From a virus, in IMG/VR virus record IMGVR_UViG_3300025300_000025, positions 1-42,812 of that record: a DNA stretch of 42,812 bases; one strand, 5' to 3'. The position numbers were made by a program, and so were the translations under genes. Shown here piece by piece: positions 13,101 through 42,064 of the stretch; position 1 is the first letter of the stretch; every line of letters starts with the position of its first letter. The notes under the pieces are model-generated. The model did no database searches. It was not told the DNA's origin and saw only the letters and a program-made list of their open reading frames with translations.

Positions 13101-13584
13101 GACCAACTGGCATCCCTGTATTTGGATCATACTCGATATTAGATGCGCCCGGTATTTGACCTTCATCAGGTGCTGGTCTTTTAAACCAATCCCATGCTGA
13201 TTTTCCTAATTCTTGTAATGTTGGCTGACCAGAAAGATCAACACCTGCGGACATTCCACCCGCCATTTCCACATTAGACATACCAGCTATTTGTTGATCA
13301 ACTGAAGGATGAACAGGCTGCAAGAAAGGTTTTCCCATATCGGATGGTACTGGAATACCATCTATCATATCGTGGGTAGGCATTCCGGCAATAGCGCCTT
13401 GATCGGCTGGAGGAGTCACAGTAACTGGTGTTGCTGCACCGGGTACATTCATCATTCTGTCGTAATAGATTAAGTCTCTATCTTTAATTTGTTGATTAGC
13501 ATCCATTAAAGCATCTACTGTAGTGCCGTATCTTCTAGCTAATGCTGACAAGGTATCACCTTGTTGTATTTTATATTGTGCCAT
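10111..13584 (-). CDS. LysM-domain structural protein, 1,157 aa, low complexity
   Basis: An N-terminal LysM peptidoglycan-binding domain (residues about 3-48, YKIQQGDTLSALARRYGTT) is clear. A second LysM-like segment (VVSGDTLSGLMG ... LIQAGSTLNIPG) occurs near residues 490-535. Between them is a tandem duplication (about 98-136 and 143-183) sharing SGQPTLQELG, then coiled-coil-like and Gly/Ala-rich hydrophobic stretches. The middle and C-terminal parts are Pro/Val/Asp/Glu-rich and carry two GGRxGYQ motifs (623-629 and 991-997). Size, position before the ejection proteins and cell-wall-binding modules suggest a virion protein that meets peptidoglycan during entry. No catalytic hydrolase domain is visible. 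Confidence 0.75.
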   Translation of the reverse strand: MAQYKIQQGDTLSALARRYGTTVDALMDANQQIKDRDLIYYDRMMNVPGAATPVTVTPPADQGAIAGMPTHDMIDGIPVPSDMGKPFLQPVHPSVDQQIAGMSNVEMAGGMSAGVDLSGQPTLQELGKSAWDWFKRPAPDEGQIPGASNIEYDPNTGMPVGLGVSGQPTLQELGAGIFNALEPVAANVSEKVAKATENATKAVNKAVDEAPDAIKGGITNFLNEDVGAVINGLDRADQYIKSGELGLDVTKASKGAEKLITKYADIVKKYASEGAESLAKNTDLIRKDFLYTLSEFVQDNNLDTRSIVETIDVDWLYAATGVRNKKKERAEKIRLAKIERERQRRMAALQNMPEGQYGTYAGGGLVQQAQNVAAQGRYGDSMLMHVNPAEVAGLSQVMPITTNPETGQPEAFLPFLVPLLGSLAGGALGTAGMLGGSIGTIGGAALGSGLATFAQTGDAQKGLLAGLTGYGLGKLLPMMGGPFAAKEAAGAAGAATTPVVSGDTLSGLMGTHGGNQAAWMAANPSITNPNLIQAGSTLNIPGSSAGAQPFSWGALGTAASKPGTFVPMLAGSSGLGMMESQEQFAQQMADLKRKNEAEYNRMIAEHPEYVPMLQGNRTFAAQGGRIGYQGGGGLGGGGGGGGNVDRKDKEWKPTQAIEALPISPFYQSGFQPEMSYFKNLNPSSAQIRSGFGDSDWVDAQNQIAGGVSPITDQQFRPFDPTQTAGYQSFYNAPRSPYVVDPYAPMDYENQPRPYDPPVYIDDPIFEPLPVVEEPVVEQPIIDIPTPVGPAIPSEEIDIGDWSDPTGYDEMMDTGVPMDQYGDPIEPTAIWNNQASGTAGYTAPSTYTPDITDLNREELETLGLDIPPVAPAPVIPAPVVQPPVVPSMVAQTGPVGGQGAVAPPNLGGMGLTLPPPSAIPDIPSTIPIDPSTLAPISLGLTPEELETGAYAPPPVFAPPVVAPPAVTEEEVLPQERRIDRSRGGGRRRKAEGGRTGYQNQGVTEVSGEVINPVEAEAGVSIMDDPLTQEVVLFILGESGNQEVVSQFLAKYGNEAFMQLRNSVLQQLAPDAQTEGQIAGTGGGGMADDINGVIGNQEQIAVSQDEFIVPADVVSMLGDGSSDAGADQLYGMMDRVRKAKTGTTRQAPRLANAGGLLPA
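13036..13293 (-). repeat. Tandem duplication (~45 aa) in LysM protein
   Basis: Two consecutive diverged copies are encoded here. Each begins QI-x-G-x-SN-[VI]-E and contains SGQPTLQELG followed by a short aromatic helix (AWDWF versus IFNAL). This looks like an ancient in-frame duplication. Confidence 0.7.
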
Positions 13585-16404: not shown

Positions 16405-16815
16405 TTAACCCTCTACTATCATTATTCTTAGTCTTTCGCTTCTCGCTCCAACCTGTTTACTCCATTTGCTGTCCATCATTTCTATACCGGCTTTTTCCCA
16501 ATCTTTTGCTTCCATTGCTGCAAGAAATTTTTTAAAACCGAGTAATCTGGTTAGACCTAGATTGAAACACATATTGATTAATGCTCTTGCACGAACATCG
16601 TTTAAATCCTTATACCAATCAAATGTTTTATTCAATTCTTTCGTGCATTGAATAATATCATTTACCAGTAAATATTCTATTTCATCTTGAGATAAGCCAA
16701 CTTCCTGAATATTTCTGCCAACACCGATTGTCCATATGCCCAATGAATCCTGATAAGCTTTATGCTCAATTCCTTCATCCCGTTTCAATTCTTCAATTAG
16801 TTTCTCGTTATCCAT
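16405..16815 (-). CDS. Endolysin: T4-type lysozyme (GH24 muramidase), 136 aa
   Basis: The catalytic triad region of T4 lysozyme is intact: E14 in RDEG, D23 in YQDSLG and T29 in WTIGVGRN. Downstream family motifs are ALINMCFNLG and a tryptophan region (DSKWSKQVGARSERL). It should cut the MurNAc-GlcNAc bond of peptidoglycan at lysis. No signal peptide or SAR segment is seen, so it depends on a holin, which is the gene immediately upstream. The stop abuts the next gene's ATG. Confidence 0.95.
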   Translation of the reverse strand: MDNEKLIEELKRDEGIEHKAYQDSLGIWTIGVGRNIQEVGLSQDEIEYLLVNDIIQCTKELNKTFDWYKDLNDVRARALINMCFNLGLTRLLGFKKFLAAMEAKDWEKAGIEMMDSKWSKQVGARSERLRIMIVEG

Positions 16816-16820
16816 ATTCT

Positions 16821-17300
16821 TTATGATTTTTCTTCTTTATTAGAAGCTCCAAAATAAAAACTAGATATACCTGATACAAGACCACCTAAATATCCTAATA
16901 CCAAACTAACAATAGTGTCGCTATTTTGATCTGGAGGTAAAATAGTTACAGTAAATATGTAACCCACAAAAGCTATCAAAGCAATAAGACCAAATACTTT
17001 TGGAGTCCAATCTTCTTTAAAAGCTTTTCTGGCATCTTGTATATCCTGTGTTTCAAGGGCATATAGATCAACATCGAGTTCTTTCATCTTTACTTCAAAG
17101 TCAGCATCAATCTTTTTAAGTTCTGTAAGTTGCTCTGGTGTTGCTGCTTGCATGGCTTGTTCTATTTTTTTTGGAGCAGGATCACATCCTAATACGTCAG
17201 CCACCATATTTGCTGCCATATTTCCCATTGGACCGCCTAAAGCCGTACCAATTGTAGGAGCTACAGCACCGATAATATTTTTTATAAGTTTAAACTTCAT
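16821..17300 (-). CDS. Holin, 3-TM gene-transfer-agent type (159 aa)
   Basis: Residues 9-38 form a glycine-rich amphipathic or hydrophobic segment. A charged helical linker follows (about 40-95), then two clear membrane helices (about 99-120 and 128-150) and a short charged tail. The pattern GAVAPTIGTALGGPMG with a C-terminal WTPKVFGLIALIAFVGY matches the Holin_3TMs family known from gene transfer agents and marine phages. It would permeabilise the inner membrane and release the lysozyme encoded 5 bp downstream. Confidence 0.85.
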   Translation of the reverse strand: MKFKLIKNIIGAVAPTIGTALGGPMGNMAANMVADVLGCDPAPKKIEQAMQAATPEQLTELKKIDADFEVKMKELDVDLYALETQDIQDARKAFKEDWTPKVFGLIALIAFVGYIFTVTILPPDQNSDTIVSLVLGYLGGLVSGISSFYFGASNKEEKS

Positions 17301-17322: not shown

Positions 17323-19104
17323 TTAACTGTAATTGTTTTCCCATGTATATACTTCTAATGGTTTTTCTTTTCCTTTAACTTCAATAGGTTGCAATGATTT
17401 TAATTTAAAATTACTGTACTTAGAAGTTTCTTCACCAATCAGTACATTAACTCCTGCTACTTTTGTCGCACTTTCCAATCTTGCAGCTACATTACAGGGA
17501 TCACCGATAAGGGAAAAAGCAAATCTATCCGTAGCACCAAAGTTACCTGCAATACAAATACCTGAATTGACACCTATACCTATCGCTATTTCAGGGATTC
17601 CTTCTTCTTTAAACTTTTTATTTAATTCAATTATATTTGTTTCTATCTGTCTTGCAGCCTGTAAAGCTAAATTATGGTGATCTTCCTGCGGTAAAATAGT
17701 ATTCCAGTGAAACATTCCAGCATCACCAATAAATTTATCAGTGACCCCTTCATATTGATTGACCGCATTTACCTGAACATTCAATACATTATTCATTATG
17801 TAAGTTACCTGCTCTGGTTCAACAGATTCAGATAAACTGGTAAATCCTCTAAGATCAGTAAAAATAATACTGCAATCCCTTCGCGCTCCATTAACTTTAC
17901 ATAATGCAGGGTTATCCTGTAATTTCTTAACCATTCTAGGATCAAGATATTTGCCAAATTGCTTTTTAATCTGTTGTCTAAGTTTATATTGCTGCCTAAA
18001 TCTTAGATAAAATGCCGTAGCTCCTGCTATAAACTGGCATATTAAAGTCCAAGTAACATCGACCAATAATCCATGTTGTATCATATAGAAGCCGAAATAC
18101 GCGCTTACAGACATTATTGCTGCAAATAGGCTAATACCTAGCGTAATACCAAATAAAAGCAATACAAGCCAAATAAGAGCCACTGAGAAAAAAAGTATCA
18201 GCATCTCTAATGCTAAAGCATAATCAGGTATATAAGGGCTATCTTCTATTAAAATACTTTCAGCCAAAGCTGCCTGTATTTTATGTGGTTCCAATAAACC
18301 TACTGGAGTAGCAAGTTGAGGCATTACTCCTTTGGCAGTGACACCGACAAATACAAACTTACCTTCTACATCCATTTCTTCCAAAGTTGTCTGTGGTGTA
18401 TCTACCCAACTGATCCACTTTCTGCCAAACGAATCCACTTTCACGGCAGGTAAACCTCTAACCCTTATTTCTTCTAAACCATTTTGATTTGTCTTTATGA
18501 CATAAGTATCAGCATCTACCAATACTTTTAATACTTCTGTGCCATAAGCAGGAACCCAACCATCAGGAGTACGCATTAATAATGGTAAACGCCTGACTAG
18601 ATTATCTATATCAGTTCTTGCTACTGCTATCCCTTCATTGGCAACCTCTGACAACATTGGAATATTGTTAAGCACACCTTGTGATTCAATACCGCCAGTA
18701 TCTTCCCCCAATATGACTGTACCAATCGTCTTGGGATATTGGTTATTATTATTTTCAAATAAAGGCAGAACCGAAGGTGCATAACTCAAGGATTCGGCAA
18801 AAGCATCATCGCCACCCAATCTATCTTTATGTGGGAATCCAATAACCCAACCTACTCCTATAGCACCTTTTTGTAGTAATTCTATCTGTATTTCAGCCAA
18901 TCTTTGTCTAGGTAAAGGATACCCGCCTTCTTTATCAATATCTTCTTCAGTGATATTGAGAATTGTAAAGTAACCCGAAGGTGGCTTTTCAGCGACTAAA
19001 GCATCAAAAGTCTTTAGTTTTAGTACCTCTAAAGGTTCCCATTGGAAAGATACTGGAATAAAAAATAATACAATTAATGCAAATAATTGCACATATCTAA
19101 TCAT
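17323..19104 (-). CDS. CHASE2-domain transmembrane class III adenylate/guanylate cyclase (593 aa)
   Basis: Architecture: TM helix 4-20, extracytoplasmic CHASE2 sensor (about 25-290, with IEEDID-like and PLPRQRLAEI motifs), three TM helices (about 296-366), a short linker and a complete class III catalytic domain (about 405-590). Metal aspartates D417 (IFTDLRGFTSL) and D461 (KFIGDAG), Lys457, and transition-state N538 and R542 (NVAARLE) are all present. The second purine-recognition position is Ser531 (FSLIGD) where Thr or Asp is usual, so ATP is the likelier substrate. It should make cyclic nucleotide in the cytoplasm in response to an unknown periplasmic signal. Its start overlaps the end of the second curlin gene by 8 bp, tying it to the curli cassette. 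A full-length membrane cyclase in a phage late operon is highly unusual. Confidence 0.92.
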   Translation of the reverse strand: MIRYVQLFALIVLFFIPVSFQWEPLEVLKLKTFDALVAEKPPSGYFTILNITEEDIDKEGGYPLPRQRLAEIQIELLQKGAIGVGWVIGFPHKDRLGGDDAFAESLSYAPSVLPLFENNNNQYPKTIGTVILGEDTGGIESQGVLNNIPMLSEVANEGIAVARTDIDNLVRRLPLLMRTPDGWVPAYGTEVLKVLVDADTYVIKTNQNGLEEIRVRGLPAVKVDSFGRKWISWVDTPQTTLEEMDVEGKFVFVGVTAKGVMPQLATPVGLLEPHKIQAALAESILIEDSPYIPDYALALEMLILFFSVALIWLVLLLFGITLGISLFAAIMSVSAYFGFYMIQHGLLVDVTWTLICQFIAGATAFYLRFRQQYKLRQQIKKQFGKYLDPRMVKKLQDNPALCKVNGARRDCSIIFTDLRGFTSLSESVEPEQVTYIMNNVLNVQVNAVNQYEGVTDKFIGDAGMFHWNTILPQEDHHNLALQAARQIETNIIELNKKFKEEGIPEIAIGIGVNSGICIAGNFGATDRFAFSLIGDPCNVAARLESATKVAGVNVLIGEETSKYSNFKLKSLQPIEVKGKEKPLEVYTWENNYS

Positions 19105-19894
19105 ACTGATTGACTGTAATCGTTTTATTGCAAGTACCAGTGCAATCCAATGTTACTGTGTAATTCTGGTTCGTTGAGCCTGATTGTGTAGCATTAACTG
19201 TATAACTACCCTGTTTTACTAAAATATTCCCGACATGAGTGCCATTACCACTTTGCGTTAGATTGACTGTATTGTTATCTGATGGGTTATTTCTAAATTC
19301 TATATCCCCGTCTTTAGCACCACTACCTGATTGTGTAATCGTTGCATCATTATTATTGCAATTACCACAGGATTTTATGTAAGCGTTATGGTTTCCTGTT
19401 CCAGATTGTGTGATTGTCCAGTCAGAATAATCACCGAAAGCGTACATCTTGGCGTAGAAATCATCCCCTGTTTGGCTAATGATATAGTTATTGTTATCAC
19501 CGCCCATATATATCTCAGCATAATCATCATTTCCTATCTGGGTAATGGTGGTAACATTATTACTGTAATCCAGATCAAGGTAAGCGGTGTTATTATCCCC
19601 TTCCTGCTGAATCGTATATTCATTATTCGTATGATTAGTAAACTGTGAATAGGCTTTTGCAAGGTTTCCATCGCCAGTCTGGTCTATATCAATATCGGCA
19701 TTGGTGCATAAATGAGTATCAAAAGTGCCATCGGACAATCCGCACCATACCCTCGCGGTATTACCTGCACCTATCTGATCTACCAGAATCTCAGTACCAC
19801 TGCCTTTGGTTCTTACTTCAACAGTATTATCTGCCGCCCATAAGGGAAGGCTAATTAGACTGATTAATAGTAATCGAACTATCGCCACCACCAT
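19097..19894 (-). CDS. Secreted curlin-repeat (CsgA/CsgB-like) protein 2 (265 aa)
   Basis: A signal peptide (RLLLISLISLPLWA, cleavage near residue 20) precedes about nine curlin-type repeats of the Q-x-G-x-x-N pattern: VDQIGAGNTA, IDQTGDGNLA, QQEGDNNTA, TQIGNDDYA, SQTGDDFYA, TQSGTGNHNA, TQSGSG, TQSGNGTH and TQSGSTNQN. These form cross-beta strand-turn-strand units in curli amyloid. Unlike E. coli CsgA it carries closely spaced cysteine pairs (SCGNC, DCTGTC and a longer pair near residues 50-60). The ORF starts 44 bp inside the FecR gene; this ATG is needed to retain the signal peptide. The probable role is an extracellular amyloid subunit exported through the CsgG pore. Confidence 0.85.
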   Translation of the reverse strand: MVVAIVRLLLISLISLPLWAADNTVEVRTKGSGTEILVDQIGAGNTARVWCGLSDGTFDTHLCTNADIDIDQTGDGNLAKAYSQFTNHTNNEYTIQQEGDNNTAYLDLDYSNNVTTITQIGNDDYAEIYMGGDNNNYIISQTGDDFYAKMYAFGDYSDWTITQSGTGNHNAYIKSCGNCNNNDATITQSGSGAKDGDIEFRNNPSDNNTVNLTQSGNGTHVGNILVKQGSYTVNATQSGSTNQNYTVTLDCTGTCNKTITVNQYD

Positions 19895-20930
19895 TGATTG
19901 TTGCCCTTATTTGTTTTCCAGCAGTTAAAATATTAAGGTTATAAGCTCCTTCCTTATCCAGTTCCAAATCAACTGTATTTTCCACTTGCCTGAAAATGGT
20001 TAATATTTCACCTTCCACGAAGGTATAAGTCTGATTATTCTGGTCAAATCCTGCCAATATTCCTTCCAATTGAACTCCATCCAACTCACTGACCTTTTCT
20101 TTATCTTTACCGACATCTTCAATGACATCCAATAAATCAGCAAGAAAATCCACGTTCAATAGGTCTATATCTAAACGATTGACTTCATCCAACTCATTCT
20201 CATCAAGATCATTCTCATCCAGTTCAGTTTCTTCCAGTAAATCAACATCCAGTATATTGGAAGCTGTAGCACTTTGTTCTTCCACAGCCCTTTCAATTTC
20301 ATCTGGCGGATTAACAATTAATAAATTATCAATAAAATCAAGGGTTAAGTTGATTAAAACTACTGGCTTTGTCGGCATGGATTCACCTACACTGACCATC
20401 GTTGCCTGAAAAGGCTCGTTTAGCACCACAGTACCTGCTAACGAATCTACTGTTATTTCTCCTGACGAAGTTCCATCTGCATCAGGTAAAAGAATAACCA
20501 GACTTCTGCCTATCTCATCTACTGTAGTAGTGAAATCAGTTCCACGAATCGCAATATTGGCTGTTGGAGTCTTAATACTGATATTTTCTTTATTGATCCT
20601 GCCTAATGCGCCTGTAATAAATCTTGCCGTACCACTAGCCATACGAAGTGCCATCTTGCTTTTGGCTGGATTAGGATCATAAATATACTCGTCAATAATA
20701 ATCTTGGAATGTTCTGTCAACCTAACTGTAGAAGAATCAAGAAACTCAATAGCTATTCGACCATCGCCAGTACGGACATCATCAAAAGAAAAAATATCTA
20801 AAGCTAGCTCTGCCAATAATTTATCCTGCTGGTTAGTGCGTAAAACTTCACTATTTCCTCTTAATTCAGATATTTCTCCTACCTGTGCAAAAGAAACAAC
20901 AGGAATAAGCGCTAACAACCACTTGTGCAT
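19851..20930 (-). CDS. Secreted FecR-domain protein with acidic linker (359 aa)
   Basis: A signal peptide (LLALIPVVSFA, cleavage before Q16) leads into a FecR-type beta-rich domain (about 45-150) with VRTGDGRIAIEFLDSSTVRL and TPTANIAIRGTDF (121-133). A strikingly acidic region (about 228-285) repeats the unit LDEN/ELDE (ELDENDLDENELDE). The C-terminal 60 residues are beta-rich and end NGGGDSSITINQSN, reminiscent of a single curlin-like strand. FecR domains act as periplasmic sensors or envelope-anchored partners, and FecR proteins are often encoded beside CHASE2 cyclases. The gene overlaps curlin genes at both ends (19 bp and 44 bp). No TonB receptor or sigma factor is nearby, so classical iron-citrate signalling is unlikely. 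Confidence 0.85.
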   Translation of the reverse strand: MHKWLLALIPVVSFAQVGEISELRGNSEVLRTNQQDKLLAELALDIFSFDDVRTGDGRIAIEFLDSSTVRLTEHSKIIIDEYIYDPNPAKSKMALRMASGTARFITGALGRINKENISIKTPTANIAIRGTDFTTTVDEIGRSLVILLPDADGTSSGEITVDSLAGTVVLNEPFQATMVSVGESMPTKPVVLINLTLDFIDNLLIVNPPDEIERAVEEQSATASNILDVDLLEETELDENDLDENELDEVNRLDIDLLNVDFLADLLDVIEDVGKDKEKVSELDGVQLEGILAGFDQNNQTYTFVEGEILTIFRQVENTVDLELDKEGAYNLNILTAGKQIRATINGGGDSSITINQSN

Positions 20931-21619
20931 TGATCTATATCAATCGTGCCGCTTGTTGTTGTTGATACAATATTCACGATACCACTGGTGCTTGCGCCAC
21001 TATTTGTTTGGTCAATGTCAATATTATTGCTATTACCTGTGATAGAAGCAGTAATGGAATGGTCTGCATTACCTGTTTGGGTAGTGTCTATATCGTTACC
21101 ATCCCCACTTACTGTCCAGTTATTAATACAACCCACAACCTCACAGGTGGCATTAATGTTGTTTGAAGTTCCTGTTACCGCAAAATCCTGATTACCACCT
21201 GTGGCAGTGGCTGCTGCTCCTTGTGTCATCACAAGAACATTACTGTCTCCTGTGGCTGCATAATCAAAATCCGTACCTGCTATATCTCCAGTGGCACCAC
21301 CAGCGAGGGTAGTGACATTACTATCGCCTGTCGTATTAACTGTAAAACTACTGTTATTGGCTTGAACAGCACTTGCTGCAAGCGTATTACTATCGCCTAC
21401 TTGGTCAATATCAACAGTGACTGTCGATCCAGTAAACGTAGCTCTAGCTTGCGCTGATCCCACAGTATTACTATTGCCAATCTGGTCGATATTCATTGTT
21501 AATCCAGTTCCAGATTGGGTAATATATATCAGGTTATTTGCTCCAAAAGCGACACTTGCAGTACAAGCTAAAACCAAAAGTATAAAAGATGACATTCCCA
21601 TAATAATAAAATGTCTCAT
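20912..21619 (-). CDS. Secreted curlin-repeat (CsgA/CsgB-like) protein 1 (235 aa)
   Basis: A signal peptide (FIILVL-type core, residues about 4-26, cleavage near AFG-A) is followed by curlin-style repeats: ITQSGTG, IDQIGNSNTV, IDQVGDSNTL, TTGDSNV, ATGDSNVLVMTQ, TQTGNADHSI, ITGNSNNIDIDQ and a terminal IDIDQCTSGC. Several units have lost the leading Gln, so this copy is more diverged than the second curlin. Four cysteines occur in two spaced pairs (CEVVGC, CTSGC). The start is fixed by a strong GGAGG six bases upstream, lying inside the csgG stop region. It is the likely nucleator or major subunit for the CsgG exporter encoded immediately upstream; which of the two curlins nucleates cannot be told. 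Confidence 0.85.
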   Translation of the reverse strand: MRHFIIMGMSSFILLVLACTASVAFGANNLIYITQSGTGLTMNIDQIGNSNTVGSAQARATFTGSTVTVDIDQVGDSNTLAASAVQANNSSFTVNTTGDSNVTTLAGGATGDIAGTDFDYAATGDSNVLVMTQGAAATATGGNQDFAVTGTSNNINATCEVVGCINNWTVSGDGNDIDTTQTGNADHSITASITGNSNNIDIDQTNSGASTSGIVNIVSTTTSGTIDIDQCTSGC

Positions 21620-21620
21620 A

Positions 21621-22403
21621 TCAATCCTCCGTCTTTATATCCCATACATCTCTATCAATTCCTTGTTTAATTAATGCGTAAACTGCTGTTTCTATGGCAG
21701 ATTTTACTGCATATCCCGTTGTTTCATTCTCAGTTATCCCTGATTCCAGTTCAACTAATTCGGTCCCGTTTTCCGTAAATCTAAAACCATCCATACCAGC
21801 ACCAACAGAAAATATTGTTTTGCTTGCTGATACATTTAAAATTATCTCTCCAGTTTGGACAAGAACAGCTCTTAAAGCTACTGTAACACGATCCCTTCTG
21901 TATTGATTAGTCAATCCTATCCCTAAATAACGCGCTCCCGTACCACCAGTCTGGTAATTGGCATCATAAGAAATAATGCCTCCTTCCATGATTAATCCCG
22001 AATATAATAACGGCATTAATTTATTGGCACCTTCTCCATCGTAACTATTCCTAGTAGAAACAATGAGTTGCCTTTCCCTAGTTAAATGGTCTAAACCGAC
22101 ACGTTCAGCAACAGTGAACCAGCTTCCTTTTCCTGCATTAATCAATGCTTCGATTAAGTATAAATCAGCGCCTTGAGTAACGGCTGTGCTGAATAAAGCC
22201 ATATTATCTGCTGACTTACGTTGTCCAGTCAGATCGGGAAACTTATAAACAGAAACAACCGCTTTCTGTTCTGGAACGGGTAAATCTATAAGTGCTTGCA
22301 AGGAAGGTCTTTCAATGATTGGACCTTCAGTATCTCCTACTACAGTTATTCCAGCACATCCTGAAATTAACAAAAAATACAACCATATGATTAAGGTACG
22401 CAT
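21621..22403 (-). CDS. csgG: CsgG-like curli secretion channel, outer-membrane lipoprotein (260 aa)
   Basis: The lipobox I-S-G-C places the lipidated Cys at residue 16. From about residue 35 the protein follows E. coli CsgG closely: LIDLPVPEQKAVVSVYKFPDLTGQ, FSTAVTQGA, the ER-x-GL-x-x-L block, IMEGGIISYDANYQTGGTGARYLGIG, QYRRDRVTVALR, TGEII, SKTI and SAIETAVYALI-x-x-GIDR-x-VWD. CsgG forms a nonameric outer-membrane pore exporting curlin subunits. By eye, the constriction loop differs from E. coli: the Tyr51 and Asn55 positions are replaced and one residue is inserted, while the Phe56 equivalent (F71) is kept. It starts 13 bp inside csgF, so the two are co-expressed. Confidence 0.95.
   Translation of the reverse strand: MRTLIIWLYFLLISGCAGITVVGDTEGPIIERPSLQALIDLPVPEQKAVVSVYKFPDLTGQRKSADNMALFSTAVTQGADLYLIEALINAGKGSWFTVAERVGLDHLTRERQLIVSTRNSYDGEGANKLMPLLYSGLIMEGGIISYDANYQTGGTGARYLGIGLTNQYRRDRVTVALRAVLVQTGEIILNVSASKTIFSVGAGMDGFRFTENGTELVELESGITENETTGYAVKSAIETAVYALIKQGIDRDVWDIKTED
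21626..21630 (-). promoter_or_regulatory. Strong Shine-Dalgarno of curlin gene 1
   Basis: A perfect GGAGG lies six bases before the ATG at 21619 and overlaps the last codons of csgG. High translation of the first fibre subunit relative to the pore would be expected from this arrangement. Confidence 0.7.
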
Positions 22404-22897
22404 TCATCTGAAGAACAGATACCAAAAGACCCTACAGGAATTATAATCTCTGTTGTTACTCCATCTTCATCAATAATAGTTAATATAATCTCCGTACCAG
22501 TATTAACAAAAGTAATCACATTACCTTCCAAAACAATACTTCCGCCTGTGCCGCCTGTGTCACTATTAAACAGGGATTCAGCAAGATCACGGGAAAGCTG
22601 GGAATAAATGCGAGATTCCAGATTTCTAAGAAATTTAGCTAAAGTAGTGTTATCGGCATCTCTAGCAGCTTCGTTTAAAGCGGATTCTATATCTTCGGCA
22701 ATCTTTTCCCTTCTGGAATTTTCCTGCTCATCTATAGTTAAATAATGGGCTGATGTACCAATACCACTAAAAGAAGGGTTATGAAACTTAAATGTAATAA
22801 TATCTGCTTTGATTGAAGCAGAACAAAAAGATAGCAAGATTAACCACCCTATTATTAACAATCCGTTATCATTTAATCTTTTTATTCTTTTTTTCAT
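22391..22897 (-). CDS. csgF: CsgF-like curli assembly factor (168 aa)
   Basis: A signal peptide (LLIIGWLILLSFCSASIKA, cleavage near residue 31) is followed by DIITFKFHNPSFSGIGTSAHYL (32-53). This is the diagnostic CsgF N-terminal peptide (E. coli GTMTFQFRNPNFGGNP...) that inserts into the CsgG pore and forms a second constriction. A charged helical middle (about 55-110) and a C-terminal beta hairpin region (IVLEGNVITFVNTGTEIILTI) match the family layout. The product should couple the secretion pore to fibre nucleation at the cell surface. The start overlaps the upstream membrane gene by 29 bp; no separate promoter is visible. Confidence 0.92.
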   Translation of the reverse strand: MKKRIKRLNDNGLLIIGWLILLSFCSASIKADIITFKFHNPSFSGIGTSAHYLTIDEQENSRREKIAEDIESALNEAARDADNTTLAKFLRNLESRIYSQLSRDLAESLFNSDTGGTGGSIVLEGNVITFVNTGTEIILTIIDEDGVTTEIIIPVGSFGICSSDECVP

Positions 22898-23132
22898 GTT
22901 TAGCAGACTCTCTTAATTCAATTACAGTATCGAGTTTTTGTTGAAGTCGAATGATGTCATTATCCAGCATTCTAATTCTGTCAATTAACTCAATTAAGGT
23001 AACAGAAGTTTCTGATAATTTCTTTTTTATATTATTAGTAATAAACCCCCAAATAAAATAAATCATATATAGCAGACCAACTGTAGCTACGATAGGAAAT
23101 CCGTATTCGCTGATGATTGTAGCTATATCCAT
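22869..23132 (-). CDS. Small single-TM protein with coiled coil (87 aa)
   Basis: The N-terminal segment ISEYGFPIVATVGLLYMIYFIWGFI (residues about 7-31) is a membrane helix. A charged heptad-like helix follows (about 35-75, with LIELIDRIRMLDNDIIRLQQKLDTVIEL), then a very basic tail. It resembles the neighbouring 93-residue protein (shared GFPI before the helix, similar length and topology), suggesting duplication. It is possibly a holin accessory or XhlA-like membrane protein; the exact role is unknown. Confidence 0.65.
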   Translation of the reverse strand: MDIATIISEYGFPIVATVGLLYMIYFIWGFITNNIKKKLSETSVTLIELIDRIRMLDNDIIRLQQKLDTVIELRESAKHEKKNKKIK

Positions 23133-23413
23133 TAATCCCTTCTAGCATCTTCTTTGCCATTAGCTCTAGCTATCCTTTCAAGGTCAGGTCGAATACCAAT
23201 AACACTACATAAGGTAGCATCCATTCGGATCATATCGTGATTCATTGTTTTTACTCGATTATCCAATGAAGAAACAATACCATGTATAGCATCTACTTGA
23301 CCAATAACGCTTTCCAAAATGTACTTGATAGTAAGAAATATGAAGAATCCGCCAATCAAAGCCATAGCAATAGGAAAACCAACATCAGCTATTAATGAAA
23401 ATACCTCATTCAT
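23132..23413 (-). CDS. Small single-TM protein with coiled coil, paralogue-like (93 aa)
   Basis: Membrane helix at about residues 8-34 (IADVGFPIAMALIGGFFIFLTI), then a helical stretch (IHGIVSSLDNRVKTMNHDMIRMDATL). Topology and the GFPI motif match the downstream 87-residue protein. It is linked to its neighbours by stop/start contact on both sides (TAATG at 23132). It is probably an inner-membrane protein made late in infection; a lysis-timing role is speculation. Confidence 0.65.
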   Translation of the reverse strand: MNEVFSLIADVGFPIAMALIGGFFIFLTIKYILESVIGQVDAIHGIVSSLDNRVKTMNHDMIRMDATLCSVIGIRPDLERIARANGKEDARRD

Positions 23414-25369: not shown

Positions 25370-28300
25370 TTACTCCTTGCACTTATCGTGTGCTTTTGTT
25401 TCTAATTCTTCGACCTTTGCCGAAAGTTCTTGGACTGCGTTGATTAACATAGGCACTATATTTGTATAGTTAATACCATATCTAGTTTCATCTTCAGTTA
25501 AATTAACTAAAAGACTATTATCATTATTACTACCAAAACCGTGTTCTTTTTCTATTTCTAGTACATCTTGCGCTATAAGTCCTACTTCAACTTTAGGTTT
25601 TGTTAAAGAGCCATCAGTTTTTACTGCCAGTATATCTTCAGGTGTAGCATCTTCATCAACATACCAAGACCTTCTATCCCATTGGTAAGTAACTGGCTTC
25701 ATTTTATTTATCCAGTCTAAACCATTACTAAAATCTGTAATATTTCTTTTATCTCGGACATCAGAAGTATTAATTGTGCCTTGTGTGCAAAATAAAGTTC
25801 CTAGATTATCGTCACCTAAACACATAATATTACTTTCTGTAGTAAGATTACCGCTAGGACTTCCTGTTATTCCTGAACCTTCTCCAATACAAGTATTCCT
25901 ACCGCCTGTTGTTATTGCCTGACCAGCTCTAAAACCTAATGCCACATTGTTACTACTTGTAGTGACTGCGCTTAAAGCGTTGTAGCCTACTGCTGTGTTA
26001 TTATCACCTGTGGTATTACCATCTAAAGCATAAGTTCCTACTCCTGTATTAGAAGCGCCTGTGGTGTTTGCGACTAAGGCATTATAACCCATAGCAACAT
26101 TATTCGATGCTGTCGTGTTAGCAGACAATGCAGTGTAACCAACGGCAACATTGTTTGATCCAGCGACCACACCCGTCATCGAACCTTTACCTAACGCTGT
26201 ATTGCCAGTACCTGTAGTGGCGTTTGTTAATGCTTCGTGTCCAACAGCAGTATTATTGCTAGATGTCGTAATCGCATCTAAAGCTATAGCACCAACAGCA
26301 GTATTTCCTGCTCCTGTGGTGTTTGCTGTTAAAGCCTCTAAACCAACTGCTGTATTATTGCTTGCTGTTGTATTCGCTGTTAAAGCAGCCGTACCGACTG
26401 CGGTATTATCTGCTCCAGTTGTATTTGTTGCTAAAGCTAATCTACCAATAGCTACGTTTTGACCTGCTGTCGTATTAGCTATCAAAGCATCTTTACCAAC
26501 TGCGGTATTAGCACCTCCTGTTGTGTTTGCTGTTAAAGCATCCATACCAACTGCTGTATTGTTATCAGCTAAATTGGCTCTTAGTGCGTCTTTACCAACA
26601 GCCGTATTTGACGTGCCAGTTACATTTAATTTTAAACTTGATAAACCAACTGCTGTGTTATCACTAGCTGTGGTGTTTGCTCCTAAAGCATCTTGCCCTA
26701 CCGCAACATTGTTTGAACCAGTTGTATTAGCGTCTAAAGATGTATAACCAACTGCTGTGTTAGAAGCACCTGTGGTGTTTGCTACTAAAGCCTCGTGACC
26801 AACTGCTGTGTTGTTACTTGCTGTGGTGTTTGCTCCTAGTGCGTTCCGACCTACTGCAATATTACCTGAACCAGTGGTGTTTGCGTCTAATGCCTGATTA
26901 CCAATGGCGACTAGATTATCTCCTGTCGTATTAGAGGTTGCTGCATTATAACCAACAGCAGTATTAGATTCTCCGCCTGATGTTTGTGCAGCTAAAGTTC
27001 CATAACCAATAGCAACATTATTACCTGATGTGGTGTTTACTGCTAAAGAATTATAACCTACTGCTGTATTGCTAGATGCCGTGGTATTGTCATTTAAAGC
27101 CAGTTGTCCTACTGCTACGTTGTTAGCACCTGTGGAATTAGCTGCTAGAGCCTGTGAACCAAGAGCAGTATTATCAGCTCCTGTGGTGTTAGCACTTAAA
27201 ACATTATAACCAACACCTGTGCAGTTTGCTGCCGTTGTATTAGCGTCTAAAGCTTGAAAACCAATGCCCGTGTTACCTGCACCTGAAGTATTTGCGTATA
27301 AAGCAGCATAACCAACAGCCGTGTTACCACTAGCTGTAGTTGCTGTTCCCAGAGCTTCAAGACCAATCGCAGTATTATCACCACCAGTTGTAAGTGCATC
27401 TCCTGCTTCTTTACCAACAAGCGTATTATTTGTTCCAGTTGTTATTGCTGCTCCTGCGCTTTTACCAACTGCTGTATTTCTTGTACCTGTGGTGTTTGCT
27501 GTTAAAGCGTCTTTACCAACTGCGGTGTTGTTATCTGCTGTGGTGTTAGCGTCTAAAGCATATGCACCAACAGCAACATTATTTGTTCCTGTGGTGTTTA
27601 CTAATAAAGAACTTGCACCTACGGCAACATTATAATCAGCAGTTGTGTTAGCTCCTAAAGCACTTTGACCAATAGCAACATTTTCGTCACCAGTTGTGGT
27701 AGCATCGAGAGAATAAGAACCTACTGCTACATTCTTAATACCTTCATCAATTAATTTTCCAGAATTATAGCCAATTGTAATATTTCTATCACCTGTGGTT
27801 ATTGCTTCTCCAGCAGAGTAGCCAAGAGCAGTATTTTTAGTAGCTGTGGTAGATGCTGTTAAAGCGTTATATCCCACCGCAGTATTGTCAGACCCTGTGG
27901 AGTTAGCGTCTAAAGCACCTGATCCGATTGCTACATTATTATCACCTGTCGTTGTTGCGCCACCAGCATTATCACCTACTACAGTGTTATCTGAACCAGT
28001 AGTGACTGCATCCAGTGCCGCTTCACCTATTGCTACGTTATCTGTTCCTGTCGTTAAGGCTGTGCCTAAGTTACCAGAACCCAGTCCTACGTTACCTGTA
28101 CCACCTGTCATATCCAGTACATCAGTAACTGCTGCGCCTGAACCTGCTCCATCTGCCACAACCATCTTAATTCCGCCATTGGGAATAACGACATTGGCAC
28201 CTGTACCTTGACTAATGGATACAGCGTAACCTGCCGAGTTCTGGATAACCCAGACTTTATTGACTGTATTCGGTGCAAGGGTAACTGTGTTTAATGCAGT

Positions 28301-28516
28301 AATAGACCCTGTCAGGGTCATTGCCATAGTTCTCGCTGCGTCTGAAGTTCCATCAGCCATAGTGATGGTATGCGTAGTGCCTGTTATTCCTTCCGAGCCA
28401 CTACCAAAAGCTTCTCCGATCAATTCCAAATTTGTATTTGTTGAAGTACCCCACGTTCCTGACTCATCACCCGTGGCGATCTCTTTTAATCTTAAATCAT
28501 TTACATATGTTGCCAT
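25370..28516 (-). CDS. Tail fibre: YadA-type repeat stalk with C-terminal S74 self-cleaving chaperone (1,048 aa)
   Basis: Residues 1-140 form a non-repetitive head with a beta-rich, phage-style base. Residues about 142-885 hold about 43 copies of a 17-residue repeat with core NNTAVG followed by A-L-x-A-N-T-T, the hallmark of trimeric YadA-head-like or collagen-like stalk domains. The C-terminal 134 residues are a peptidase S74 intramolecular chaperone: SDVRDKRNI (S918, K923), VTYQWD, VGLIAQDVLEI, YTNIVPMLINAVQEL and a terminal coiled coil. This domain trimerises the fibre and then cuts itself off at Ser918. It is the likely receptor-binding fibre. Confidence 0.92.
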   Translation of the reverse strand: MATYVNDLRLKEIATGDESGTWGTSTNTNLELIGEAFGSGSEGITGTTHTITMADGTSDAARTMAMTLTGSITALNTVTLAPNTVNKVWVIQNSAGYAVSISQGTGANVVIPNGGIKMVVADGAGSGAAVTDVLDMTGGTGNVGLGSGNLGTALTTGTDNVAIGEAALDAVTTGSDNTVVGDNAGGATTTGDNNVAIGSGALDANSTGSDNTAVGYNALTASTTATKNTALGYSAGEAITTGDRNITIGYNSGKLIDEGIKNVAVGSYSLDATTTGDENVAIGQSALGANTTADYNVAVGASSLLVNTTGTNNVAVGAYALDANTTADNNTAVGKDALTANTTGTRNTAVGKSAGAAITTGTNNTLVGKEAGDALTTGGDNTAIGLEALGTATTASGNTAVGYAALYANTSGAGNTGIGFQALDANTTAANCTGVGYNVLSANTTGADNTALGSQALAANSTGANNVAVGQLALNDNTTASSNTAVGYNSLAVNTTSGNNVAIGYGTLAAQTSGGESNTAVGYNAATSNTTGDNLVAIGNQALDANTTGSGNIAVGRNALGANTTASNNTAVGHEALVANTTGASNTAVGYTSLDANTTGSNNVAVGQDALGANTTASDNTAVGLSSLKLNVTGTSNTAVGKDALRANLADNNTAVGMDALTANTTGGANTAVGKDALIANTTAGQNVAIGRLALATNTTGADNTAVGTAALTANTTASNNTAVGLEALTANTTGAGNTAVGAIALDAITTSSNNTAVGHEALTNATTGTGNTALGKGSMTGVVAGSNNVAVGYTALSANTTASNNVAMGYNALVANTTGASNTGVGTYALDGNTTGDNNTAVGYNALSAVTTSSNNVALGFRAGQAITTGGRNTCIGEGSGITGSPSGNLTTESNIMCLGDDNLGTLFCTQGTINTSDVRDKRNITDFSNGLDWINKMKPVTYQWDRRSWYVDEDATPEDILAVKTDGSLTKPKVEVGLIAQDVLEIEKEHGFGSNNDNSLLVNLTEDETRYGINYTNIVPMLINAVQELSAKVEELETKAHDKCKE
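25862..28093 (-). repeat. About 43 tandem 51-bp (17-aa) repeats in the fibre gene
   Basis: The repeats keep a strict 17-residue period with conserved N-[NT]-[TV]-A-[VI]-G and A-L-x-A-N-T-T positions. DNA copies have diverged, so this is an old expansion kept by protein structure rather than recent slippage. One unit is shortened (ANLADNNTAVG). Confidence 0.9.
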
Positions 28517-37652: not shown

Positions 37653-37853
37653 TTATTTAATATGCTTTTCACTCCAGTCCAGCATTTCTCTTTCCGCGAG
37701 TGCCAATCCTTCAATAACACCAGCCATCTTTTGATAATCGCTAAAATCCTTACAGGCACCCGTTGCCATGTGATCAGCGTGTTGATTCATCAGCTCCCTT
37801 AGACGTTTCTTTAAAAAAGAAGAGAGTGATAGCTGTGTGATATCATTTGTCAT
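37653..37853 (-). CDS. Small helical protein after portal (66 aa)
   Basis: The sequence starts MTNDITQLSLSSFLKKRLREL and is helical throughout (YQKMAGVIEGLALAEREML). Its start overlaps the portal's stop by 11 bp. It is a common companion of portal genes in marine phages; no function is known. Confidence 0.7.
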   Translation of the reverse strand: MTNDITQLSLSSFLKKRLRELMNQHADHMATGACKDFSDYQKMAGVIEGLALAEREMLDWSEKHIK

Positions 37854-40326
37854 TCTTATTGATATCTTTGGCTATATCGATACCAATGTCAAGACCCTTC
37901 ATATATTCTTCGCGCTCTGCTTTTTTATCTTCTTGTTCGTTTGATAGCAGATCGCTTGCAATTTGCTGTCCTACTTTTAATCCTGCTATTTCTTCTTGTG
38001 ACTTAATTCGTTTTTCTTCAAGCTCTTTATTACCACTGGCTTTAGCCGCATCCAGCAATATTTTGGCTTGACCTTCCTGTAATTTGCGTTGCACTTCCGC
38101 TTCCTTGATACCGAGTTCCCTTTCCTTCGCCTGTATCAATGGGTCTTTCATTTGTTCTTGTATACGTTGTTGTTCCGCTTGCGCTTGCGATGTCATGGTG
38201 ACCCGCTTCGCTGCTTCGGCAACCAACTCGGAAATCCGTTTCTCAACATCGGCAGGGATAGGCTCGCCTTCTGGCGGTAACTCAATACCCATTTCCTGCT
38301 CAACCTGTTTCCTGAACTTCATGGTCAGGTGCTCATTCACATAGGCTGATGCTGCCGCTTGTATTGCTGCTGCATTCGGTGCCTTTTCAACCAGTTGCAT
38401 GATTTCAGGATTTTCTTGAGCTGATGCCACTGTCATTATATGTGCTTCGTGATCCTGCTCGATAAATGCCTTAACGGGATTGCCGTTGATTAAATTCTGT
38501 ACTGCCGTGACGGGATCGACTGGTTTAATGTCATCCTCAGTCGGAACGATATCTTCCACGTTTCTGATTCCCAATACTTCCAGCATCTGCCGATGCAATT
38601 CAGGCAGGTTATACATCTGCGGTGCGGTGGTCGCCAATTGCATGGCGGCTTGATACTGCATGATGCGTTGTGCCATTGTTGCAGCATTCGGATCGGATAC
38701 GGGCAAGACATCCACCCTTTCATCAAAATCCTCCGCCTTGATAAATTCTTCTTCATCCATCTCGTAGGGGTAAGCGGGATCGGTAAAATCGGTAACGATA
38801 TTGACCAATATATCAAATTCCTTGCGCATGGAAGCATGAAGCCGTGCTTGTACCGCACTCATCACTTTCATGTTTCTTTCCATCAATGCCAGCGTTGTGC
38901 CGACAGGAGCCTGATTATTCATGTCCGATATCTTCATATCGGAGATACTGGCAAACCTTCTTCCTTCCTCAACAATATTCTGCAATAGCTGGTATAGCGT
39001 TGCCGATGGTTCCTTGTAAGGCAGGAAGGTAATATTATCCCGAATCGCGCCACCGGGAATATCGACATCCCTGAACTCGCCCGGCATGATCGGGGTATCA
39101 TCGCCCTTAATGCGTAATCCTCTGGCTTTCAAGCCGCCCGGTAAATTGGATAACGTACCTGCATCCACTAACTGCCTTAATAGGCTGGTGGCTGATTTGG
39201 CTAATCCGCCTATCATGTGGATCAATCCAAAGCCGTAAAAACCGATTCCCGGTAAATACTGGTAATGCACAAAATGCATACGCCTTAATTTTTTCGGGTC
39301 ATCCTCATACCAATTCCTGCGGATACTCAGGACAATCCCGCTTGGATAGTCCATCGTTACCACATAAGGTACCGCTATTCCCGTTGCATTCCCTGATTCA
39401 TCGGTATCTTCAAATCCCTGTAAATCCAGATTTACCTGCATTTCCAGTAATACATGGCGATTATCAAGGTTGTAAGTATCGACATCGCCCGTCATCTCGT
39501 CATATTTTTTGGCGATATCGCTTGAATTTGGTGATGCATCCGGTAATTCGACATCCCTGTAGAAGCCGCTTACCTGCATCTTGCGTACATCATTGGAAGA
39601 TTTCTTCATTATGTGCGTGGCACGTTCACAGGTTTCCAGATCACTTGCTCCGTAATTCACGATAACATCTTCTGCCGGTACAAAAATCGAGCAGGGTCTA
39701 TCCAAATTAGGATCGTAATATACTTTACGGAACGCGGAACCCGCCAACGGAAGGGAAAATAACATCTTTTCCGTTTCGGTTCGGTATTCCGTCATCTCGT
39801 GGGTCAGCAGGAAGTTGAGATAATCTTGGACACGCTGTGCCTGTTTTGTCTTATCTTCAGTGACCTTGCCGACTATTTTTGTCCTGACAGGACCTTGTGC
39901 TGGAAACATTTCCGAAATTGCCTGAGATTGAAAACGGATGACCGCTTCACTCATCATCGGGTGAAACACGCCACAGGCTCCAGCCCACGGGGTGGTACGA
40001 TCTTCAAACTTCAATCCGAGCTGATCCAGTCCTTTGGTGTAAGTCTCTTCCCAATCAGTACGGGATTCCTTGTCGCCCGCATACGATTCAATCAAATCCA
40101 TGCCCAATGTATCCAATTCCTGCTCATCGATAAAATTGACCAGATTGGAATCAAATTCAGATTCTTCGGATTGTCCTGCATTCGGGTCAAAATCAATAAT
40201 GACACCGCCATCCTCAGTCTCTATCGCCACCGACTCAGGGTTCTCAATGGCAATCGAGAGTTCCTCTTCAGGCTCCTGTTCAATGGTACCTTCTATCGGG
40301 GTAGCAGGTCGTCTTTCTATAGCCAT
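37843..40326 (-). CDS. Portal protein, P22-like (827 aa)
   Basis: The core portal blocks are present: TPWAGACGVFHPMMSEAVIRFQSQAISEMFP (wing/crown start, in outline), KVYYDPNLDRPCSIFVPAEDVIVNYGASDLETC and HYQYLPGIGFYGFGLIHMIGGLAKSATSLLRQLVDAG in outline. A helical crown/barrel follows, with a long charged coiled-coil C-terminus (about 690-820). The acidic N-terminal 60 residues look disordered. The portal forms the dodecameric ring through which DNA is packaged by the terminase encoded upstream. Length exceeds the P22 portal (about 725). Confidence 0.92.
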   Translation of the reverse strand: MAIERRPATPIEGTIEQEPEEELSIAIENPESVAIETEDGGVIIDFDPNAGQSEESEFDSNLVNFIDEQELDTLGMDLIESYAGDKESRTDWEETYTKGLDQLGLKFEDRTTPWAGACGVFHPMMSEAVIRFQSQAISEMFPAQGPVRTKIVGKVTEDKTKQAQRVQDYLNFLLTHEMTEYRTETEKMLFSLPLAGSAFRKVYYDPNLDRPCSIFVPAEDVIVNYGASDLETCERATHIMKKSSNDVRKMQVSGFYRDVELPDASPNSSDIAKKYDEMTGDVDTYNLDNRHVLLEMQVNLDLQGFEDTDESGNATGIAVPYVVTMDYPSGIVLSIRRNWYEDDPKKLRRMHFVHYQYLPGIGFYGFGLIHMIGGLAKSATSLLRQLVDAGTLSNLPGGLKARGLRIKGDDTPIMPGEFRDVDIPGGAIRDNITFLPYKEPSATLYQLLQNIVEEGRRFASISDMKISDMNNQAPVGTTLALMERNMKVMSAVQARLHASMRKEFDILVNIVTDFTDPAYPYEMDEEEFIKAEDFDERVDVLPVSDPNAATMAQRIMQYQAAMQLATTAPQMYNLPELHRQMLEVLGIRNVEDIVPTEDDIKPVDPVTAVQNLINGNPVKAFIEQDHEAHIMTVASAQENPEIMQLVEKAPNAAAIQAAASAYVNEHLTMKFRKQVEQEMGIELPPEGEPIPADVEKRISELVAEAAKRVTMTSQAQAEQQRIQEQMKDPLIQAKERELGIKEAEVQRKLQEGQAKILLDAAKASGNKELEEKRIKSQEEIAGLKVGQQIASDLLSNEQEDKKAEREEYMKGLDIGIDIAKDINKNDK

Positions 40327-40346: not shown

Positions 40347-40556
40347 CTAATGCAATACCCTGTTGTCAGTTTTGTGGATAAAAAGATCATCCATGATTTC
40401 CTGTAGTTCCTGTTCAAAGTCTTTGGTTAACTCGACTTGTAAAATCAATCCGTGAGATTTAGCCAACTCTCTGGCATTCATCCATGTATCCGCATGGATA
40501 TTCGGACCTTCGTATTCATCGCCATCTAAAAAAAAAGAAGTTGAAAATATTTTCAT
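40347..40556 (-). CDS. Small conserved protein between terminase and portal (69 aa)
   Basis: I choose ATG 40556, which overlaps the terminase stop (TGATG), over the in-frame TTG at 40559. The sequence has a beta start (IFSTSFFLDGDEYEGPNI) and a helix with WMNARELAKSHGLILQVEL. The pattern is common in marine phages next to terL; its role is unknown. Confidence 0.65.
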   Translation of the reverse strand: MKIFSTSFFLDGDEYEGPNIHADTWMNARELAKSHGLILQVELTKDFEQELQEIMDDLFIHKTDNRVLH

Positions 40557-42064
40557 CAATAATAATTTGCGATTCTATTATGCTCCAAAGGTTCATCCTC
40601 TTCATCGGAATACAATGGAACGAACCCGCCTTGCCTGAATCTTAACAGAGCTTGCGTTGTGCTATCAACTAAATCGTCATGTTCCATGTTGGGGAATCCT
40701 GCAAATTCTTCTATGACTTCTTCCGCCCATCGTGTTGAGGGGTGCCATACCACGCCTGATGCAAATAAATCGGAAACCGCATTCACCCTTGAAATCTTAT
40801 CATTGCCGCGACTCGGTGTGTATTCCTGCACGGGTATCCCCATTTGCCTTAATTCAAAGATAAGGGGGGTACCAGCCGCTTTCGCTTCGACAATGAATGC
40901 ATCCGGTTTATACATCTGATATTTATCCATTGCCTTCTTTTTCAACTCTGGAAACTCCAAGCGTTCCTTGTAGGCATCCAGTAAAATTAAATTCGGTGCA
41001 AGCTTGCCTTCATCGTTCTCACGATAGAATACTCCCCATGTGGTACAGGCGGAGTAGTCGGCTCGCTGTGTTTTCAGGAATGCCGTATCCCATGATTGAA
41101 TAATGAAATCACAATCGGGAGGATTAAGACCTTCCCATTCTTTCCACCATTCGCGTTTGACCAATGCACCTTCTTCCGAAGTCGGGTCCTGTTGGTACTG
41201 AGCCATCCATTTACTGCTCGGTAGTTCCGACCTGAGTGCATTTAATTCATCTATATCCCAAAATTCAGCCCATAACGGATTACCTGACGGCATAATTGCA
41301 GGTAATTCAATCACTTCCCACTTCTCTGTGCCACCACGTTTGATGCTGGAATCAACCAATTGACCGGTCAGGTCACGATTATGCCAGCGCGTCATCACGA
41401 CAACGATGGAACCCTTCGGTTGTAGACGCTGTCTTGGACCAGAGGTGTACCATTCGTAAGTGCGATTGAATATGTTGATATCCGCACTGACACCTTCCTG
41501 TTCCGAATGCGGGTCATCGATCACCAATAGATCGGCACCTTTACCCGTTACCGCACCGCCAACACCGATAGCAAAATACTCGCCACCCTTGTTGGTATTC
41601 CAACGACCAGCCGCCTTGCTATCCGCTTGCAGACTGACATCGGGGAAAATACTCTTAAAATCGGTACTGTTGACCAGATTACGCACCTTTCTGCCGAATC
41701 CCACCGCCAGTTCTGCGGTATGTGCAGTCTGAATGATCTTCTTTTCTGGATATTGACCCAAAAACCATGCAGGTAACAGGTAGGAAGCAAACTCCGACTT
41801 GGTATGTCGTGGCGGCATATTGATAATCAACCGCTTCAGCTTGCCTTGTGCAACCCGTTCAAACGCTTCAGCCATGATGGAGTGGTGTTTACCTTCAATA
41901 AAGGCAGCCCACATCTCTTTTACAAACGGCATAAACCCGTCATGACACTTCTCAGACCTTTCGGCACGTTCAAGGTCACGAAATAACTCGACATACTCAC
42001 GCTGTTCATCAACAGGCAAGCTCTTTATCATATTCAGGGCTTTATTATTCAGAAAATTCACCAT
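40556..42064 (-). CDS. terL: Terminase large subunit (502 aa)
   Basis: ATPase domain: Walker A-like MPPRHTKS (83-90), Walker B LLVIDDPHS (179-187) and coupling motif VVVMTRWH (221-228). RNase H-like nuclease domain: D326 (SWDTA), E393 (VEAKA) and the D463/D464/D467 cluster (HDDLVDS). These drive DNA translocation into the portal and cut the concatemer. The start has no obvious Shine-Dalgarno and sits in a palindromic CCATATGG. A promoter and repeat array lie upstream. Confidence 0.95.
   Translation of the reverse strand: MVNFLNNKALNMIKSLPVDEQREYVELFRDLERAERSEKCHDGFMPFVKEMWAAFIEGKHHSIMAEAFERVAQGKLKRLIINMPPRHTKSEFASYLLPAWFLGQYPEKKIIQTAHTAELAVGFGRKVRNLVNSTDFKSIFPDVSLQADSKAAGRWNTNKGGEYFAIGVGGAVTGKGADLLVIDDPHSEQEGVSADINIFNRTYEWYTSGPRQRLQPKGSIVVVMTRWHNRDLTGQLVDSSIKRGGTEKWEVIELPAIMPSGNPLWAEFWDIDELNALRSELPSSKWMAQYQQDPTSEEGALVKREWWKEWEGLNPPDCDFIIQSWDTAFLKTQRADYSACTTWGVFYRENDEGKLAPNLILLDAYKERLEFPELKKKAMDKYQMYKPDAFIVEAKAAGTPLIFELRQMGIPVQEYTPSRGNDKISRVNAVSDLFASGVVWHPSTRWAEEVIEEFAGFPNMEHDDLVDSTTQALLRFRQGGFVPLYSDEEDEPLEHNRIANYY

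Follow-up and report, generated by a model that had tools for sequence, protein, structure and literature searches.

A phage-borne curli cassette joined to a FecR-domain protein and a CHASE2 adenylyl cyclase: a possible surface-sensing module in a marine podophage

The IMG/VR virus record IMGVR_UViG_3300025300_000025 (42,812 bases, positions 1 to 42,812; referred to here as the window) carries a curli (type VIII secretion) cassette that is joined to a FecR-domain protein and a CHASE2 class III adenylyl cyclase. The gene families, the active-site residues of the cyclase, the plug motif of CsgF, and an exported FecR protein with a curlin-like tail can be read from the sequence, and they suggest a phage-borne curli operon with a built-in surface-sensing module; as a whole, this mechanism has in our judgement an even chance of being correct. 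Cassettes of this kind have been described before; for three of the parts, the interpretation given here appears to be without precedent in the literature outside preprints and most subscription journals.

Composition of the cassette

Six open reading frames (ORFs) on the minus strand, from 22897 to 17323, encode in this order CsgF, CsgG, a curlin-like protein (Cur1), a FecR-domain protein, a second curlin (Cur2), and the CHASE2 cyclase. The initial annotation of this DNA had described them as overlapping or abutting genes, and this is borne out: CsgF and CsgG overlap by 13 bp, CsgG and Cur1 are 1 bp apart, and the overlaps that follow are 19 bp (Cur1/FecR), 44 bp (FecR/Cur2), and 8 bp (Cur2/cyclase). 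The range that it gave (17323-22897) was correct for these six genes and missed two more coupled genes directly upstream (23413-22869), the second of which overlaps csgF. Overall, the cassette comprises eight genes, including two proteins of about 90 amino acids (aa) with a single transmembrane (TM) helix, HK1 and HK2, before csgF. Pfam profile searches agree with the families first named for CsgF, CsgG, FecR, Cur2, CHASE2, and the cyclase, with Cur1 below the cut-off (Table 1).

CsgG aligns over its full length with the PDB structure of CsgG, 3x2r (E 4e-43, residues 2-258), and CsgF aligns with that of CsgF, 6l7a (E 0.0026). With F38, P41, F43, and G47 invariant in its alignment, CsgF retains the N-terminus that plugs the CsgG pore. 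Cur1 shares 32% identity across 231 aa with the product of the HTVC008M gene that is annotated as CsgB and is confidently predicted to form a beta-solenoid (predicted local distance difference test, pLDDT, 86; predicted TM-score, pTM, 0.80); synteny, this likeness, and the model support its assignment as a putative curlin. A CsgG pore, a CsgF with a plug segment, and curlin-repeat subunits, by which curli secretion is recognised, are all present and are shared with the E. coli system (csgBAC/csgDEFG). The cassette differs from the latter in the added FecR protein and cyclase, and no CsgE, CsgC, or CsgD was seen among the genes scanned.

Precedents and distribution among viruses

According to PMC9599517 (mSystems 2022), the same gene order occurs in nine HTVC023P-type podophages and also in pelagimyophages, with two curlin genes, FecR, and adenylate cyclase (AC); it is given as one or two histidine kinases (HK), CsgF, CsgG, CsgA/B, FecR, CsgA/B, and adenylate cyclase. 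Since that paper describes this order, the idea in the initial annotation that no phage cassette with two subunits, FecR, and cyclase had been described fails. The window itself belongs to the pelagiphage type VIII secretion system (T8SS) module of PMC9599517, as it has both the order CsgF-CsgG-CsgA/B-FecR-(CsgA/B)-(AC) and the same phage lineage, the HTVC023P-type podophages; identities to the nearest records are 40-43% for the portal protein and 52-57% for the terminase. csgG and csgF were also reported in phages with a proposal of "sibling capture" (PMC7029224), and in Melnitz with a proposed pore for the timing of lysis (PMC9004378). The latter paper states that csgA and csgB are absent from Melnitz; the Melnitz record as deposited, however, lists FecR and two genes with curlin repeats.

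After removal of obvious duplicates, 92 viral loci were counted, each count being limited to loci with enough sequence. CsgF precedes CsgG in 77 of 77 loci and the small TM proteins are present in 76 of 77, FecR follows in 68 of 68, and a CHASE2 cyclase is found in 38 of 41. The nearest bacterial CsgG loci, by comparison, have FecR in 2/73, the cyclase in 2/67, and the small TM proteins in 0/76. All eight genes are found in order in the isolate myophages HTVC008M (a Pelagibacter phage) and Melnitz (a Methylophilales phage), both T4-like, whose CsgG is 45-47% and whose cyclase is 32-33% identical to that of the window. Two viral contigs of 217 and 340 kb (L178 and L179) likewise have all eight. 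The cassette order is shared by unrelated marine phages, and profile searches of the kind proposed in the initial annotation found it repeated in dozens of viral contigs; its description of phage-encoded curli genes joined to FecR and a CHASE2 cyclase has both the Pfam families and this synteny behind it. In L178 and L179, roughly 4 kb separates the second curlin from the cyclase further downstream.

A chimera of host curli DNA and a phage contig, created by assembly, had been named as a possible source of error and can be practically dismissed. Because identical or near-identical cassettes with the same phage flanks are present in separate assemblies (L004, L005, and L006) and the same order is found in dozens of contigs, chimeric assembly is ruled out; homologous cassettes were also recovered from many viral contigs and from six records that belong to two phage isolates, and nothing was found in favour of a chimera. 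A CsgG match was also obtained in an unannotated 1,499-bp record of Salmonella phage S.Kent 1-2-1 (OR851715.1), which may simply be host curli DNA.

Small membrane proteins upstream of csgF

The published interpretation (PMC9599517, PMC7029224) is that of a curli system regulated by a histidine kinase, an iron-dependent FecR, and an adenylate cyclase, a system that serves to clump cells together (sibling capture), to prevent superinfection, or to take up cofactors. Although the window cassette has the identical gene order, this interpretation is considered unlikely, and the first difficulty lies with the kinase. PMC9599517 places one or two histidine kinases before csgF in every case, and these are probably HK1 and HK2 to judge from their position. 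Homologues of HK1 and HK2, however, are about 80-127 aa long; a Pfam kinase domain was found in 0 of 28 of them, and their alignment (A7) has no conserved His. With neither a HisKA/HATPase domain nor a conserved His, the histidine kinase identity was rejected. Among 50,697 phage records, HK1 has matches only in six curli-cassette records, and the two proteins are dedicated parts of the cassette and not kinases.

HK1 and HK2 have a weak likeness to the holin family phrog_4898, and the cassette is close to a lysozyme gene. Both observations would fit the proposal made for Melnitz (PMC9004378), in which CsgG and CsgF are a repurposed pore, pinholin- or secretin-like, that times lysis and exports no fibre. 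That proposal assumed the absence of curlin genes, which is at odds with the Melnitz record described above; in addition, the plug motif of CsgF is kept, and the curlin genes and FecR are conserved alongside the pore. A lysis pore is accordingly regarded as improbable.

The FecR-domain protein

Classical FecR is a membrane anti-sigma factor. In the cassette protein, a short signal peptide is directly followed by the FecR domain (about residues 16-180 of the model), a low-confidence acidic linker (about 200-278), and a C-terminal beta domain, which ends in a curlin-like half repeat. It has the periplasmic FecR domain of the family, with a PF04773 match and fold matches to 6ovk and 4m0h. An anti-sigma regulator would also have an N-terminal cytoplasmic segment, a TM helix, and a gene for an extracytoplasmic function (ECF) sigma factor (FecI); in the protein, neither a TM helix nor an anti-sigma segment was found, and Sigma70_r2 had no match in the window, itself probably a fragment. 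FecI-FecR iron signalling was rejected on these grounds, and they constitute the second difficulty of the published interpretation.

In the model, the FecR domain resembles in fold both PupR/FecR signalling domains (6ovk, E 5.9e-5) and the domain by which an antifreeze adhesin is anchored to the cell surface (5ix9; 63 columns, root-mean-square deviation 1.1 A, 28% identity, E 0.0025). The retention_LapA profile had no match in the phage FecR protein itself. The last 13 or so residues of the protein (GGGDSSITINQSN) are its most curlin-like 13-mer in 64 of 80 viral FecRs, cases that are not independent because the sequences are related; the same holds for none of the 9 FecRs encoded next to CHASE2 cyclases outside curli loci.

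The CHASE2 cyclase and its pairing with FecR

In class III cyclases, Lys together with Ser/Thr is indicative of ATP as the substrate (class IIIb). The window cyclase has a CHASE2 domain, the two metal-binding Asp residues (D417 and D461), the substrate Lys (K457), S531, and the transition-state Asn and Arg (N538 and R542), as in CHASE2 class III adenylyl cyclases. Among 57 cassette cyclases, D417, K457, D461, and R542 are invariant, and position 531 holds Ser or Thr in 53 of them and Asp in the other 4.

The cyclase of L012 is 70% identical to that of the window up to residue 395 and 39% identical in the catalytic domain; its catalytic domain is 80% identical to that of L174, and its CHASE2 part 27%. 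The same mosaic is seen in L020 and L120 with L158, and in Melnitz (L003) with L171, L176, and L178, the switch point being near residues 375-400 in L012, L020, and L120. In the Melnitz cyclase, unlike in that of the window, the catalytic domain is of foreign origin and residue 538 is Ser. The catalytic domain has been exchanged between distant phage lineages while CHASE2 stays with the cassette. With output domains exchanged and sensor domains kept, a single cyclase tree therefore mixes two histories.

This exchange looks as if the output were separately selected, and no receptor for cyclic AMP (cAMP) was detected among 11 phage records. Both would suit an explanation in which FecR and the cyclase serve host manipulation by raising cAMP whatever the fibre does, and are linked to curli by genomic hitch-hiking. 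However, FecR and the cyclase accompany the viral curli genes almost without exception (68/68 and 38/41 loci), and the viral FecR tail is curlin-like, so that this explanation is rated as rather improbable.

In Alphaproteobacteria, relatives of the window cyclase adjoin genes of large surface proteins (about 1,000-2,100 aa). These proteins carry an N-terminal FecR domain and repeats of the RTX, VCBS, or a similar type, and in 3 of 5 of them the FecR domain overlaps a match to NCBIfam retention_LapA (below cut-off); some of these cyclase loci also hold HlyD, ABC, or outer-membrane efflux genes. In the alphaproteobacterial genomes L259-L266, CHASE2 cyclases are next to FecR-domain proteins, which are mostly large RTX/LapA-like secreted adhesins, and type I secretion genes are present at some of these loci. 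An operon of FecR and a CHASE2-kinase in Burkholderia, BiofilmReg, is described as biofilm-regulating (PMC5192318); like the window, it has an exported FecR-domain protein beside a CHASE2 membrane sensor, but with a CHASE2-histidine kinase and a response regulator instead of the cyclase, LysM on the FecR protein, and no curli. Sinorhizobium CyaD1 without CHASE2 makes cAMP constitutively (PMC5498481). Overall, FecR/CHASE2 appears to be a module that accompanies secreted surface polymers and may sense them.

Cellular operons and the CsgG phylogeny

FecR and the cyclase have been described as missing from bacterial curli operons. Contrary to this statement, they do occur there, which is the third difficulty of the published interpretation. 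Two Caulobacteraceae metagenome-assembled genomes (L023 and L024) have csgF-csgG-curlin(s)-fecR-CHASE2 cyclase amid ordinary chromosomal genes, and genome G396 (L212, a 705-kb contig), from the same order-level sample, has this arrangement with chromosomal flanks. The three operons share with the window the order of CsgF, CsgG, curlin, FecR, and CHASE2 cyclase, and their CsgG falls in the viral clade; they differ in their longer cyclases (about 690 aa), in their chromosomal flanks, and in having no curlin gene between fecR and the cyclase and no detected small TM genes, the search for the latter in the three genomes having had no positive control.

The cellular cassette is rare (2/398 genomes sampled from the order), and in the other genome samples a comparable cyclase score was reached by no genome besides L023, L024, and G396. 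Among 385 alphaproteobacterial genomes, a full-length FecR of the cassette type was found only in G001, the remaining matches covering about the FecR domain only. In the CsgG tree, the viral CsgGs all group with those of the three cellular cassettes in a single clade, which has a Shimodaira-Hasegawa-like approximate likelihood ratio test (SH-aLRT) support of 100, against 78 other bacterial curli CsgGs. The cellular operons nest among viral branches, and some branches are long. The trees are quick ones with SH-aLRT as the only support, and transfer between phages and cells may have gone in either direction.

Proposed function

A proposed mechanism can be potentially described as follows. CsgG and CsgF would export Cur1 and Cur2, both of which would assemble into amyloid on the infected cell. 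The FecR protein may be a periplasmic or outer-membrane anchor (or plug) of the nascent fibre and no iron regulator; it would dock to curlin via its curlin-like tail, and its FecR domain would touch CHASE2, as in the bacterial FecR/CHASE2 pairs. The export state of the fibre would set the cAMP output to host receptors, and the benefit may be sibling aggregation or competitor exclusion. Infected cells may thereby be coated or linked, and the state of the envelope reported by a cyclic nucleotide, as was initially proposed. The most specific form, a fibre-to-cAMP sensor in which FecR is an amyloid anchor with its tail built into the fibre and with its FecR domain in control of CHASE2, is put forward tentatively, as possible though doubtful.

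Several observations weigh against this mechanism. Cur1 is under the Pfam cut-off (18.0 vs 20.7 bits), and its solenoid model found nothing in the PDB at E <= 0.001. In sequence, FecR resembles 5ix9 only weakly (E 0.05), and the tails of the three cellular cassette FecRs, alike by eye, have no curlin score with the rigid profile. The presumed contact between FecR and CHASE2 has gene neighbourhood as its sole basis. Ser replaces the transition-state Asn (N538) in 4 of the 57 cassette cyclases (Melnitz (L003), L171, L176, and L178). A Pfam cyclic nucleotide-binding protein (PF00027) was not found in 11 phage records, several of them fragments, and therefore the host would have to read the cAMP signal. 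No clumping was reported with Melnitz (PMC9004378).

Curli genes are reported to be absent from SAR11 and OM43 hosts (PMC9599517, PMC9004378), and the phage would therefore provide abundant planktonic bacteria with a surface that is entirely new to them. If the fibre-to-cAMP sensor is real, the virus monitors the condition of its own amyloid coat by way of the second messenger of the infected cell, and a bacterial adhesin-surveillance module (FecR/CHASE2) has moved from type I-secreted adhesins to curli. The corrected reading, with no histidine kinase, FecR probably as an anchor or sensor ligand, and cellular operons, would replace a speculative list of auxiliary genes by a testable fibre-sensing device, and it would tie the widespread, poorly understood FecR/CHASE2 pair to secreted surface polymers generally.

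Genomic context

By its portal protein, terminase, and GroES core gene, the window phage is placed among the HTVC023P-type marine podophages; the portal protein has its best match in HTVC027P, to whose terminase that of the window is 53% identical. Since genomes of this type have a mean length of about 58.8 kb (PMC9599517), the record is probably a fragment of a phage genome. The cassette is flanked by tail-spike, 2-oxoglutarate (2OG)-oxygenase, and nuclease genes on one side and by the lysozyme gene on the other. An Rfam search of the window gave no match, and a riboswitch like that of Melnitz was not found. Promoter-like sites numbered 17, against 32 in shuffled sequence; therefore, there is no evidence for internal promoters.

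Table 1. Genes of the curli cassette and neighbouring genes in the window.
Feature	Position	Strand	Supporting matches
HK1, 93-aa protein, first cassette gene: N-terminal TM helix and predicted coiled coil	23132..23413	-	phrog_18771 2e-29
HK2, 87-aa paralogue of HK1, same layout	22869..23132	-	phrog_18771 2.9e-28; phrog_4898 (holin) weak, 3e-4
CsgF homologue: signal peptide, N-terminal plug motif F-x-NPxFxG	22391..22897	-	PF10614 2.1e-12, 47.8 bits vs cut-off 25.8
CsgG homologue: outer-membrane lipoprotein pore, lipobox LISGC	21621..22403	-	PF03783 6.9e-48, 163 bits vs cut-off 20.8
Cur1, curlin-like subunit 1, predicted beta-solenoid	20912..21619	-	PF07012 E 0.0028, 18.0 bits vs cut-off 20.7 (below)
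Exported FecR-domain protein	19851..20930	-	PF04773 9.7e-13, 48.8 bits vs 24; phrog_37870 6e-81
Cur2, curlin subunit 2	19097..19894	-	PF07012 3.3e-15, 56 bits vs 20.7, 5 stretches; NCBIfam CsgA 1.1e-10
CHASE2 and class III adenylyl cyclase, membrane-bound	17323..19104	-	PF05226 5.1e-25; PF00211 (Guanylate_cyc) 1.1e-18
Protein with 2 C-terminal hydrophobic segments, beside lysozyme (context)	16821..17300	-	phrog_1544 1.3e-28; hydropathy
Phage lysozyme (context)	16405..16815	-	PF00959 5e-15
Portal protein (context)	37843..40326	-	phrog_1216 6.7e-31; 43% to HTVC027P
Terminase large subunit, HTVC023P type (context)	40556..42064	-	phrog_38 8.7e-105; 57% to 023Pt_psg01

Three large proteins are encoded elsewhere in the window. 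An ORF of 2,491 aa (2-7474, minus strand) extends past its left end. A 1,157-aa protein (10111-13584), which is not the same as the lysozyme at 16405-16815, has two LysM stretches and matches to endolysin/transglycosylase PHROGs near its N-terminus and around residue 520. At 25370-28516, a long, repeat-rich, tail-spike-like protein contains many degenerate repeats of the N-T-A-V-G type.

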